Both the position numbers and the translations under genes were made by a program. The notes below the pieces were generated by a model that was given only the letters and a program-made list of their open reading frames with translations, made no database searches and had not been told where the DNA came from. From assembly GCF_000787855.1 (NCBI RefSeq), contig NZ_BBPQ01000002.1, forward strand, positions 380,903-444,902: a stretch of DNA of 64,000 bases, read 5' to 3'. This stretch comes from Streptacidiphilus anmyonensis (GTDB taxonomy: Bacteria > Actinomycetota > Actinomycetes > Streptomycetales > Streptomycetaceae). Shown one piece after another: positions 55,899-60,677 of the stretch; positions within the stretch are counted from its first letter, which is position 1; every line of letters begins with the position of its first letter.

Positions 55899-57746
55899 CT
55901 ACCCCGCCAGGGGGTTGGGCAGTGGGGTGTAGGTCGAGTCGCCGCCGTCCGCGTCGAGCCAGCGCAGCAGCAGGTTGGTCTTGCCGGGGATGTGGGGGAC
56001 GGAGAGCAGGTCGCCGTGGTCCGCCAGGAGGCGGCGGGCGGCCGGCCACAGCTCCGCGGCGAGCGCGGGGTGGCGTTCGGTGATCGCGCCGGCGATCTCC
56101 CACAGGTTGTTGACGACCAGGCAGTACAGCAGCCGGTCACGGCCCTTGGCCGGGCTGACGCCCGGTGTGGGGACGTCCGGTCCGAAGCGTGCGAGCAGGG
56201 CCTCGTGGCGGTCGGTGGTGAGCTTCACGCCCTCGTGGTCGCGGAAGAGGACCTGGCCCGGCAGGCCGTCGCCGTCCACGGCGACCAGCACGTTCTGCAG
56301 GTGGCACTCCAGCACCACGCCGTGGTCCCGCAGCGCCTCCAGCGCGGGCGGCGCCAGGAGTTCGACGTAACGCCGCCACCAGGCGAAGGCCTGATCATCC
56401 GTCAGGCCGTCCAACGGGCTGCCCGCGAAGCCCTCGCTCAGACCCGCCGCCAGCAGCGGCGTCAGTCCCGGGCGCACGCGGTGCGCGAAGCCCTCGCGCT
56501 GCAGCACCGCGTACGCCTCCCAGCACTCCCCACCGTGTCCGGCCAGCGTGCGGTAGCCCTGGTCGGACAGCAGGTGGGCGGCGGTCGGCAGCGCCGCGAG
56601 CACCTCGTCGAGCGGCTGAAGCCAGCGCAGATCACGCAGCCACAGGCGGCGGATGTCATTGGTGATCCGCACCTCCAGGCTGAACTTGAGCGAGAGGTCC
56701 GCGTCCGGCAGGTAGACGGTGCGCAGTGAGGACGTCGCGAACGCGAGCTCCTCGGTGCGGCCGAGGATCCGCAACCGGCCGTCGGCGAACGCGGTCAGCG
56801 CGTCCGGCGCGAGGGTCGGGTGCGAGCGCAGCAACGCCAGCTGCCACGGGTGCGCGGGCAGCACGCGGTATCCGGGCGGCGCGGCGTCGCCCCACAGGGC
56901 GTCGATCGCCCCGGTCGCGCCCTCCCCGCCGAGCAGGTCCTCGCGCACGCCGAGCAGTGTGAGCGGGTAGCGGGCCCCGGCCTCCGCCGCGTACGGCAGC
57001 CAGCTCTCCGGCACGCCGCCGCCGCGCGTCTTCGGCGCCGGGTGGTACCGGTGCCCGGCGAGCAGCGCCTGTTCGGAGCGCAGGTACAGGTCCTCGACGG
57101 GCTTCTCGTCCCGCACCGCGGCGGCCGCGCGCGCGGCGAGCAACGCGGCGACGACGTCGCGGCTGTCGCGGATCTCCGCCCCGAGTGTCGCGTTGTCCAC
57201 GCCCGTACGGGCCCGCAGCTCCTCCTCGACCAGGGCCACCAGCGCGTCGAATCCGCCGATCGCCACCCCGTCGACGGCCACCGGCGGCCCGGGCCACCGG
57301 CCCGCACCCACGGTCAGGGTCCGCCCCGTCCCGCCGAGCCGACGCCCCGGCGCACCGCCGGCCGGCGGCTCGGTCAGCTCCCGCAGCAGGCAGTTGAGCA
57401 GCGCCGTCCCCGCTTCCGCCTCCCCCGGCCCCCAGCCGCTCCACACCTGGCCCGCGCCGCCCGAAGTGCCTGAGCCGCCCGAGCCGTGCTCGGCGCGTTG
57501 TCCGACTCCGCCGCGCCGCCCGGCCGCGCCGCGCCGCCCGGCTTCGGCACACGGTCCGGCCTCGGCATGCGGTCCAGCCGCGCCGGGCTGCCCCGAGTCG
57601 CCGCGCTGCCCGGTCTCGGCACGCTGTCCGGTGTCGCCAAGCCGCCCGTTCTCGCCGCGCCGTCCGGCCTCCGACGCAGGATCGGCCGCGCCGCCGCTCG
57701 GCGCCCCGCCGTTCCCCGTGCGGTCGTACGCCGCCCCGCCGTGCAT
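55899..57746 (-). CDS. NRPS-independent siderophore (NIS) synthetase, IucA/IucC family
   Basis: A 615-aa IucA/IucC-type synthetase that adenylates a carboxylate (citrate or similar) and couples it to an amine or hydroxylamine. Family marks: GHRYHPAPKTRGG (ATP-binding region), LPAHPWQLALLRSHP, SLKFSLEVRITNDIRRL, VVLECHLQNVLV, FRDHEGVKL, and the closing PLPNPLAG. Residues about 12-105 are low-complexity Gly/Ala/Arg/Glu with AGRRG-type repeats, absent from normal family members. ATG 57746 follows ggagg. It is divergent from a second NIS synthetase. No decarboxylase or monooxygenase gene for the amine partner lies in the window. Confidence 0.92.
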   Translation of the reverse strand: MHGGAAYDRTGNGGAPSGGAADPASEAGRRGENGRLGDTGQRAETGQRGDSGQPGAAGPHAEAGPCAEAGRRGAAGRRGGVGQRAEHGSGGSGTSGGAGQVWSGWGPGEAEAGTALLNCLLRELTEPPAGGAPGRRLGGTGRTLTVGAGRWPGPPVAVDGVAIGGFDALVALVEEELRARTGVDNATLGAEIRDSRDVVAALLAARAAAAVRDEKPVEDLYLRSEQALLAGHRYHPAPKTRGGGVPESWLPYAAEAGARYPLTLLGVREDLLGGEGATGAIDALWGDAAPPGYRVLPAHPWQLALLRSHPTLAPDALTAFADGRLRILGRTEELAFATSSLRTVYLPDADLSLKFSLEVRITNDIRRLWLRDLRWLQPLDEVLAALPTAAHLLSDQGYRTLAGHGGECWEAYAVLQREGFAHRVRPGLTPLLAAGLSEGFAGSPLDGLTDDQAFAWWRRYVELLAPPALEALRDHGVVLECHLQNVLVAVDGDGLPGQVLFRDHEGVKLTTDRHEALLARFGPDVPTPGVSPAKGRDRLLYCLVVNNLWEIAGAITERHPALAAELWPAARRLLADHGDLLSVPHIPGKTNLLLRWLDADGGDSTYTPLPNPLAG

Positions 57747-57881: not shown

Positions 57882-59614
57882 ATGCGCGCCACGGACCACC
57901 TGCAGCCGCCCGCACTCCGCCACGCCGAGTCGGCCTTCGCCGCCGAGCTCCACTCTGTGCGGCCGGACCTCGACGCCGCGTTCGCCGCCGCCCTGCCCGG
58001 CGCCCGCGCGGCGGTACTGGCTCGGCTGTGGCGGGCGCTGCAGATCGAGCCGCTGCCGCTCGCGCCCGGCGTACGCCGAAGCCTGAACGGTCCCGAGCGG
58101 CGCTTCTACGACGTCGACGCGCCGGTCGCGGGCTACACGGTCAACCTCGACGGCGCCGCGTACACCCACCCGGGCGCGCTGCTGGAGGCCCTGTCACTGC
58201 CGGGCGCCGGAACCCTGCTCGCGGAGATCGAGCACAGCGTGGTCTCCCTCGCACTCTCCCGTGCCGGAACCTGCGCGCTGCCGACGGATCATCCAGCGGA
58301 CGCGTCCGGCCCGCTGCGCACAGCCGGTTCGCTAGGCGCAGCCGGTTCGCTGGCGCAGCCGGTTCGCTAGGCGCAGCCGGTTCGCTAGGCGCAGCCGGTT
58401 CGCTAGGCGCAGCCGGTTCGCTAGGCGCAGCCGGTTCGCTAGGCGCAGCCGGTTCGCTGGAGGCGGCCGAGCGGTCGATCGTCGACGGGCACCCCTACCA
58501 CCCGTGCTGCCGCAGCCGTCCCGGCTTCACCGTCGCCGACCAGCTCGCCTTCGCCCCCGAACACGGCGCTGACGTCGCGCTGGAACTACTCGCGCTGCCG
58601 GCGCGGCGGGCGCTCGCCGTCGGCGCCTGGCCCGCTTCGCTGCGCGACGACCGAGGCGGGACGCTGCTGCCCGTCCATCCCTGGCAGGCTAGGGAGGTGC
58701 TGCCGGGCCTCGGCTTCACGCCCACCGGCCGCACGCTCTCCGCCGCGCCGCTGATGTCCGTCCGCACCCTGGCCCCGCTGGACGGCGGCCCCCATCTGAA
58801 GACCTCGCTCTCCCTGCGCATGACCTCGGCCGTCCGGGACATCTCCGGCGGCTCGGTGCGCAACGCGCCCGCGATCTCCGCCCTGCTGGAGCACGTGGTC
58901 GCGCCCCTGGACGGCTCCCTGCGGATCACCCGCAACCTGGCGGCGGCCGCCGCCCTGGTCGACGGCGAGCCCTGCGCCGACCTCGCGGCGATCGTCCGTG
59001 AGTCCCCGGCGGCCGGCCTGCGGCCCGGCGAGCGCGTCGTTCCCCTGGCCGCCCTGGCCGCCCATCCGCTGAAGACGGAGGATCCGGCCGCCTGGCTCGG
59101 CGTCTTCGCGCGGCTCACCTGGCCGCCGTTGCTGACGCTCTGGGACGGCGGCGTCGCGCTGGAGGCGCACGGGCAGAACCTGCTGCTCGTGCTGGACCTC
59201 GGCGACCGCCCGGTCCGGCTGGTGTACCGGGACCTGAACGACGTCCGGGTCAGCCCGGAGCGTCTGGCCCGTCGCGCCCGGCTCGGCGGCCCCACGCCGA
59301 ACGCGCCCGTCACCGGGCACGTCATCAGCGACGACCCGGTGGTGCTGCGCCGCAAGCTGCTCGGATCACTGGTCGGCAGCGCCTTCGGCGGCCTGGTCTC
59401 CGGATTCGGCGGAGGCGACCGCCAGGTCGAGGACCGCCTGTGGCGGGTGATCGCCGCCGAGGCGCGACGCGCGGCGGCCGAACTGCTGCACGACCCCGCG
59501 GACCGCCGCGCGCTGCTCGAAGAGCCGCTGCCGGTCAAGGCACTGACCCTGATGCGGCTGGACGGCCGACCGGCCGGGGACGAGTGGACGGAGGTGCCGA
59601 ACCCGCTCGCCTGA
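57882..59614 (+). pseudogene. second NIS (IucA/IucC) synthetase, split by a frameshift in a tandem repeat
   Basis: Two frames together give one ~577-codon IucA/IucC protein. The first (57882-58370) has the N-terminal part ending in AGSLGAAGSLAQPVR and a stop; the second carries the rest from the repeat to 59614 (DGHPYHPCCRSRPGF, LLPVHPWQAREVLPG, HLKTSLSLRMTSAVRDISG, VALEAHGQNLLLV, VYRDLNDVRV, VPNPLA). The break lies in an 18-bp tandem array where one unit has 17 bp; adding one base restores the frame. It may be a real inactivation, a switch, or a sequence error. All catalytic motifs downstream are intact. The start ATG 57882 has a poor ribosome-binding site. Confidence 0.82.
58321..58460 (+). 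repeat. 18-bp tandem repeat array (eight copies, one of 17 bp)
   Basis: Units of cagccggttcgctaggcg start at 58321, 58339, 58356, 58374, 58392, 58410 and 58128+300 (58428), with a partial eighth at 58446-58460. All are 18 bp and identical except the second (58339-58355), which lacks the a of ctagg and is 17 bp. In the intact frame a unit encodes AGSLGA. The one short unit produces the frameshift. Confidence 0.95.
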
Positions 59615-59731: not shown

Positions 59732-59750
59732 TTGGTAAGGCTAACCTTGC
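59732..59750. promoter_or_regulatory. iron box (DmdR/IdeR operator)
   Basis: ttggtaaggctaaccttgc, read on the minus strand, has aaggttagccttacc, which agrees with the taggttaggctaacc core of the actinobacterial iron box at 12 of 15 positions. It lies 3 bp before GTG 59754. Repression by iron of the ferredoxin-like gene is inferred; the box also lies downstream of the NIS synthetase. Confidence 0.75.
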
Positions 59751-59753
59751 CTG

Positions 59754-60677
59754 GTGAGCATCTGTGCGAGAGTGTCGGAGGAGCTGGCCGAACCGCTGGC
59801 CGGCAGTGCACCGCGGGCCGCCGCCTGGCTGCTGATCGAGCAGTCCGGCCCGTGGGGGCCGCGCGCGCTCACCGAGAGCCACTTCCACCCCGAGCTCGGG
59901 CGCGAACTGCAGGAGCTCACCCGCGGCACAGGTGTCGAGATCGCGTTGATCCGCCGCCCCGGCAAGCACGCCGACCGCCCGCCGACCGGTGAGCGCGCCG
60001 TCTACCTCGCCCACACCGCCCCGGGCCGCAGCTGGGTCCGCACCGCCCACCTCGCCGACCCGCACGCGCTGCGCGACCTCGACTTCGCCGCGATCGGCGC
60101 GGGCGAGCACGGCGGCTTCGGGACCCCCTACGCAGGGGACCCGCTCGCCCTCGTCTGCACCAACGGCCGCCGCGACCGCTGCTGCGCCCTGCTCGGCCGC
60201 CCGCTCGCGAGCGAACTCGCCGCGGCCGGCCACGCCCAGGTCTGGGAGGTCACCCACCTCGGCGGCCACCGCTTCGCCCCGACCATGCTGGTCCTTCCCT
60301 ACGGCTTCACCTACGGCCGGCTGACCCCGCCCGACGCCAAGGAGGTCCTGGAGGCGACCCACCACGGCCGCGTCGTCGCGGAGTTCTGCCGCGGCCGTTC
60401 CTTCTGGGACCGCCCCGGCCAGGCCGCGGAACTGGCGGTCCGCCAGAACTACGCGGTCGACGGGGCCGAGGCGCTGACGGTCACCCAGACCCCGGACCCC
60501 GTCACCGCGGACACCTGGTCCGTCCAGGTCCGCCACACCGACGGCCGGGCCTGGCAGGCCGAGGTCCGCCGCTCCGCCGCCTCCCCGGCCCGCCCGGAGA
60601 GCTGCCTGAAGGCGCCCACCACCCCCGACCGCTACGACGTGGTCTCCCTCGGCCCCCTGGCCGCGACCGCCACCTGA
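59754..60677 (+). CDS. sucrase/ferredoxin-like (thioredoxin-fold 2Fe-2S) family protein
   Basis: A 307-aa protein of the Suc/Fer-like family. CTNGRRDRCCALLGRPLA and WEVTHLGGHRFAPTMLVLP give the Cys/His set thought to hold a [2Fe-2S] cluster in the thioredoxin-like ferredoxin fold. Located next to siderophore genes and directly behind an iron box, it may help release iron from a ferric siderophore; this is inference. GTG 59754 is only 3 bp from the box, so either the message is leaderless or GTG 59772 is the real start. Confidence 0.82.
   Translation: MSICARVSEELAEPLAGSAPRAAAWLLIEQSGPWGPRALTESHFHPELGRELQELTRGTGVEIALIRRPGKHADRPPTGERAVYLAHTAPGRSWVRTAHLADPHALRDLDFAAIGAGEHGGFGTPYAGDPLALVCTNGRRDRCCALLGRPLASELAAAGHAQVWEVTHLGGHRFAPTMLVLPYGFTYGRLTPPDAKEVLEATHHGRVVAEFCRGRSFWDRPGQAAELAVRQNYAVDGAEALTVTQTPDPVTADTWSVQVRHTDGRAWQAEVRRSAASPARPESCLKAPTTPDRYDVVSLGPLAATAT

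Follow-up and report, generated by a model that had tools for sequence, protein, structure and literature searches.

An 18-bp tandem repeat in the linker of an NIS siderophore synthetase gene of Streptacidiphilus anmyonensis, interrupted by a one-base frame break

A gene for an NIS synthetase in the S. anmyonensis genome (9,386,419 bases in 153 contigs) carries, in the loop that precedes its DGHPYHP motif, a tandem array of 18-bp units, one of which is a single base short and throws the gene out of frame. The DNA analyzed here, referred to as the window, is the whole stretch of 64,000 nucleotides in which this gene lies. We give a roughly even chance to the reading that a frame-neutral repeat has expanded in the linker of an otherwise ordinary NIS synthetase and that a private, recent, and unprogrammed one-base break, a real deletion, has come on top of it. 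We hold a real one-base deletion, by which the gene would newly have become a null allele, to be slightly more probable than an error in the consensus. On present evidence the frame break is private to S. anmyonensis and unprogrammed. The relevant features of the locus, in coordinates of the window, are the following.

55902..57746, minus strand: second IucA/IucC gene of the locus, divergently oriented (the partner gene), open (PF04183, E=1e-29; PF06276, E=2.3e-25).
57882..58370, plus strand: 5′ part of the NIS synthetase gene, an open reading frame of 162 aa that ends within the array at a TAG (open reading frame listing and translation).
58321..58458, plus strand: tandem array of eight units (seven of 18 bp, the second of 17 bp) in the loop flanked by SLALSR and DGHPYHP.
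58340..58356, plus strand: the 17-bp unit, site of the frame change (unit splitting).
58368..58370, plus strand: TAG stop reached by the upstream frame (open reading frame listing and translation).
58355..59614, plus strand: 3′ portion of the gene, read in the second frame (P0001, 419 aa), with the remaining array and the IucA_IucC and FhuF domains (PF04183, E=1e-36; PF06276, E=1.6e-22).

Tandem Repeats Finder gives this array the top score of the window (269, with a period of 18, 7.7 copies, and 98% matches). Cutting it at its conserved 12-mer yields units that start at 58322, 58340, 58357, 58375, 58393, 58411, 58429, and 58447; the 3′ end of the last one deviates and merges into unique sequence. 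The encoded peptide is a Gly-Ala-Ser-Leu hexapeptide, GAAGSL, homopolymers within the array reach at most two bases, and its –1 frame holds five TAG stops. Read from the ATG at 57882, the upstream frame is AGSLGAAGSLAQPVR, which enters the array as GAAGSL, shifts register in the second unit, continues as AQPVR, and meets the TAG. The downstream frame runs through GAAGSL repeats into the IucA/IucC and FhuF domains and up to 59614, and a single open frame from start to end is absent from the synthetase gene of the window. The two parts of the broken gene were searched separately: the C part contains PF04183 followed by the FhuF-like C-terminal domain, both above the curated cut-off, and the 5′ part returns no Pfam or NCBIfam match of its own. 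Repeat finding, unit splitting, and translation thus bear out the array, the 17-bp unit, the frame break, and the stop described in an earlier note on this DNA, and the two Pfam domains uphold its assignment of the gene to the IucA/IucC family.

Because 18 bases are six codons, gain or loss of whole units is frame-neutral. Slippage or recombination can add or remove copies with the frame untouched, which is the normal route by which the length of this loop changes, and the array itself probably arose by slippage. The second unit, at 17 bp, does not follow this whole-unit logic and breaks the gene. As the sequence is deposited, translation from the start codon stops at 162 codons, before the catalytic domains are reached; enzyme activity is presumably lost, provided that the base is also missing in the cells, as we suppose it to be.

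The array is confined to this one place. In the 9.39-Mb genome, only its own units match the 18-bp unit pattern with zero or one mismatch, and all other matches have two mismatches; the totals (19+17) are like those of a reversed control pattern (20+18). The array is therefore not a chance occurrence, and a dispersed genomic repeat or an array of binding sites, which we also considered, is ruled out by the confinement of the unit to this position. A two-unit pattern, with up to two mismatches, occurs in one of 394 genomes of the family, that of S. anmyonensis itself. No publication on this array is among the papers listed by literature searches on siderophore repeats and phase variation, Streptomyces NIS synthetases, Streptomyces repeats with frameshifts, intragenic repeats, hypervariable biosynthetic linkers, and Newbler or MiSeq assembly errors. 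The array is new as a sequence and of a known kind, a repeat that leaves the frame intact in an enzyme loop predicted to be disordered. Six of its units contain CTA, a rare codon for Leu (the array has six CTAG); in a 240-kb region with 156 predicted genes, CTA accounts for 25 of 6,540 Leu codons, a count that may include the array. The presence of CTA in six units points to recent amplification of one unit.

The gene itself is widely shared in the genus. Its C part is present in all 14 genus genomes, S. anmyonensis included, and a homologue of the N-terminal part was found at the protein level in 10 of 10 other congeners searched and matched as DNA in the three congener genomes G006, G007, and G008; the named congeners are S. 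melanogenes, S. neutrinimicus, S. pinicola, S. jiangxiensis, S. fuscans, S. jeojiense, S. carbonis, and sp. 4-A2. Between SLALSR and VDGHPYHP, the linkers of 13 congeners, S. anmyonensis among them, vary from 53 to 218 nt (218 nt in S. anmyonensis, then 150, 78, 123, 105, 105, 54, 96, 53, 81, 63, 69, and 81 nt). Eleven of these 13 lengths are divisible by three, the exceptions being S. anmyonensis and sp. 4-A2. Accordingly, the frame is kept across the linker in 11 of the 12 other congeners with both anchors. In its assembly, the orthologue of sp. 4-A2, whose genome is 76% complete, is frame-broken inside the linker. A disabling break of this kind is absent from the orthologues of 11 of the 12 other anchored congeners, including that of genome G012, which as assembled is frame-broken further downstream, in its FhuF part. 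The linker of S. melanogenes could not be counted because the assembly breaks there, one contig ending in a 9-bp tandem run and another starting within the linker. A wider set of named loci, the first 38 (L042-L079) of 80 kept and partly overlapping the measured congeners, gives the same picture: after S. melanogenes (contig edge) and S. diastatochromogenes (variant anchor; linker in frame) are dropped, the linker is a multiple of three in 35 of the 36 loci with both anchors, sp. 4-A2 being the exception.

Other members of this enzyme clade have repeats of their own in the same loop. The linker of Streptomyces nymphaeiformis holds an 18-bp array encoding GAASGP/HAASGP, that of S. diastatochromogenes a 27-bp array of 6.4 copies, and those of S. 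litmocidini, a Nonomuraea sp., and S. neutrinimicus carry repeats of 48, 12, and 27 bp, respectively. Every period among the five linker arrays that pass the score is a multiple of three, and their sequences are unrelated to the S. anmyonensis array. Across 37 genes, we find five tandem arrays in 3,230 bp of linker versus 21 in 55,500 bp of the rest of the gene (binomial p=0.013), a modest enrichment; repeats also occur in other loops of the enzyme. In S. neutrinimicus, a second repeat, encoding Gly-Ser (18 bp, 2.6 copies), lies in the FhuF part of this enzyme, ≈830 nt past the DGHPYHP motif. The loop before DGHPYHP is thus a recurrent site of independent in-frame tandem repeat growth, and repeat-linked breaks at this site therefore call for inspection of the reads before they are taken for phase variation.

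An AlphaFold2 model of the intact S. neutrinimicus homologue, built with 33 aligned sequences, has a mean pLDDT of 85.8 and a pTM of 0.86: the longest stretch with pLDDT below 50, residues 140-168, is the linker, located between a long helix and the helix preceding DGHPYHP, and the loop is accordingly predicted to be disordered. The model matches NcdF (9nom), DfoC (5o7o), DesD (7tgn), and AsbB (3to3) with a probability of 1.00 and TM values of 0.65-0.69, and sequence comparison retrieves the same families. This match to the NIS synthetase fold applies to the intact S. neutrinimicus homologue, the protein that was modeled. The C part of the S. anmyonensis gene shares PF04183 and PF06276 with the NIS synthetases DesD, NcdF, DfoC, AsbB, and AcsD, although the S. 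neutrinimicus homologue is only 15-21% identical to those of known structure in the structural alignments, and the S. anmyonensis gene differs from known NIS synthetases in its very length-variable, repeat-bearing loop and its broken frame. With in-frame intragenic VNTRs in disordered loops, the array has in common a unit of whole codons, a low-complexity Gly/Ala/Ser peptide, and fast turnover between species, but one of its units is out of register and the frame is lost.

The dN/dS ratio of the C part is 0.263 versus S. melanogenes and 0.258 versus S. neutrinimicus, compared with 0.272 between those two, and unique derived codons divide into synonymous and nonsynonymous changes as 19:10 in S. 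anmyonensis, 21:8 in S. melanogenes, and 16:5 in S. neutrinimicus, a slight excess of nonsynonymous changes in S. anmyonensis on counts too small to be telling. With a dN/dS ratio like that of the relatives, the C part is still under normal constraint or was so until a very recent time. As judged from these sequence comparisons, the gene has not undergone long decay and the break would be at most very recent. The gene thus resembles a strain-specific pseudogene in its single private frame break and its intact relatives, but differs from one in that relaxed selection is not clearly seen, so that it would be at most a very young example. The repair background of the genome is compatible with such an event: NucS is present and MutS was not found in the genome. 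NucS is reported to be unable to correct indels (PMC8228993), and one study of Streptomyces ambofaciens describes loss of NucS with no considerable change in the indel rate (PMC11109965). One-base indels would therefore escape this kind of repair, which fits an accidental deletion and does not prove it.

The main competitor of a real deletion is an error of sequencing or of the Newbler consensus that created the 17-bp unit, in which case the living strain would have an in-frame array and an intact enzyme; we regard this as a serious prospect, if a little short of even, and the caution about an assembly error in the earlier note was well placed. The draft of strain NBRC 103185 derives from paired-end MiSeq data only, at 68-fold coverage, assembled with Newbler 2.6 (PMC4290990), the assembly of S. 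melanogenes, a sister genome of the same project, is broken inside the same linker, and selection on the C part is normal. We keep the probability of an error high because the authors of GeneTack, in their account of frame transitions, judged singletons with intact relatives to be mostly sequencing errors (PMC3711429). What speaks for a deletion in the cells is the kind of error that would be needed: the array has no homopolymer longer than two, and mis-stacking of identical 18-bp units should yield errors of 18 and not of one. Nor are the 240 kb that include the array and the 5′ part of the gene full of frame breaks. Tested there, 5 of 147 S. melanogenes and 6 of 137 S. neutrinimicus genes were flagged as not fully open in the S. 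anmyonensis genome, nearly all of them only at the N terminus, where predicted starts differ, and one being the antisense image of the array. A generally error-ridden assembly is thus not seen across the 240 kb tested, one clear one-base deletion outside repeats, at ≈299.9 kb of the contig, notwithstanding.

The other explanations make the frame break functional. The earlier note raised a reversible phase switch as a candidate, and we reject this as the leading idea, since adding or removing a complete 18-bp unit leaves the frame as it was and the array lacks conservation. In its plainest version, recombination among identical units would gain or lose the odd 17-bp unit and so set the frame, which we consider improbable; a variant in which recombination varies the number of out-of-register units, so that the enzyme is on in a fraction of cells lacking MutS-type repair, is less probable still. 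Seven 18-bp units beside one odd unit, five TAG codons guarding the –1 frame, and the failure to find MutS are what such a switch might look like. A biosynthetic enzyme is, however, an unusual target of phase variation, and the ordinary units are frame-neutral, so that a shift of the frame would require an event involving the odd unit. Loss of the odd unit would moreover be a one-way event because the ordinary units cannot recreate it; only its amplification could cycle the frame. The note had held that relatives devoid of the array would refute its reading, and such relatives are what we find: the array was not found in the other 13 congeners as far as they are sequenced, the linker of S. melanogenes being only partly seen, and at the same place some species have unrelated in-frame repeats instead. 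Nor are length variants known within the species, of which one assembly was analyzed. A G-tract of Bifidobacterium breve provides a documented actinobacterial example of on/off switching by slippage (PMC9187656). Among phase-variable genes with simple sequence repeats, this pilus G-tract (PMC9187656) is the nearest actinobacterial case that we encountered and shares with the S. anmyonensis gene an intragenic repeat beside a frame break; the S. anmyonensis array differs in that its unit is a multiple of three and in having no such homopolymer, conservation, or known variants. That the ribosome shifts frame within the array, or that the C part is translated alone as half of a split gene, is the least credible of the proposals, even though both parts of the gene keep their sequence. 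The only slippery heptamer in the upstream frame lies at 58169, ≈170 nt before the break, and besides S. anmyonensis a frame change in the linker occurs in 1 of 12 anchored congeners, the poor genome of sp. 4-A2; with no slippery site near the break and no conservation of the break, we reject a programmed ribosomal frameshift. Internal restart is rejected likewise, as the C frame, scanned from 58355, has its first start codon at 58697, beyond the conserved DGHPYHP.

If the one-base deletion is real, one of the NIS synthetase genes of the S. anmyonensis type strain is dead, which matters for the prediction of its siderophores; should the missing base be an error, the gene call in the deposited record is wrong. 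In total, the genome has four places with PF04183, and the cell may therefore have other siderophore routes. Siderophore clusters were recorded in all of the 11 Streptacidiphilus genomes covered by one survey (PMC7601586).

Two further observations concern the locus. The partner gene has a degenerate repeat with an 18-bp period of its own (57509-57671) in its N-terminal tail, with hexapeptides such as GQRAET and GQRGDS, and the length of this tail differs strongly among congeners. A palindrome-like sequence, ttggtaaggctaaccttgcct, lies at 59732-59752, immediately ahead of the gene at 59754, and has a counterpart in S. neutrinimicus; we take it to resemble an actinobacterial iron-regulator (IdeR/DmdR) box.
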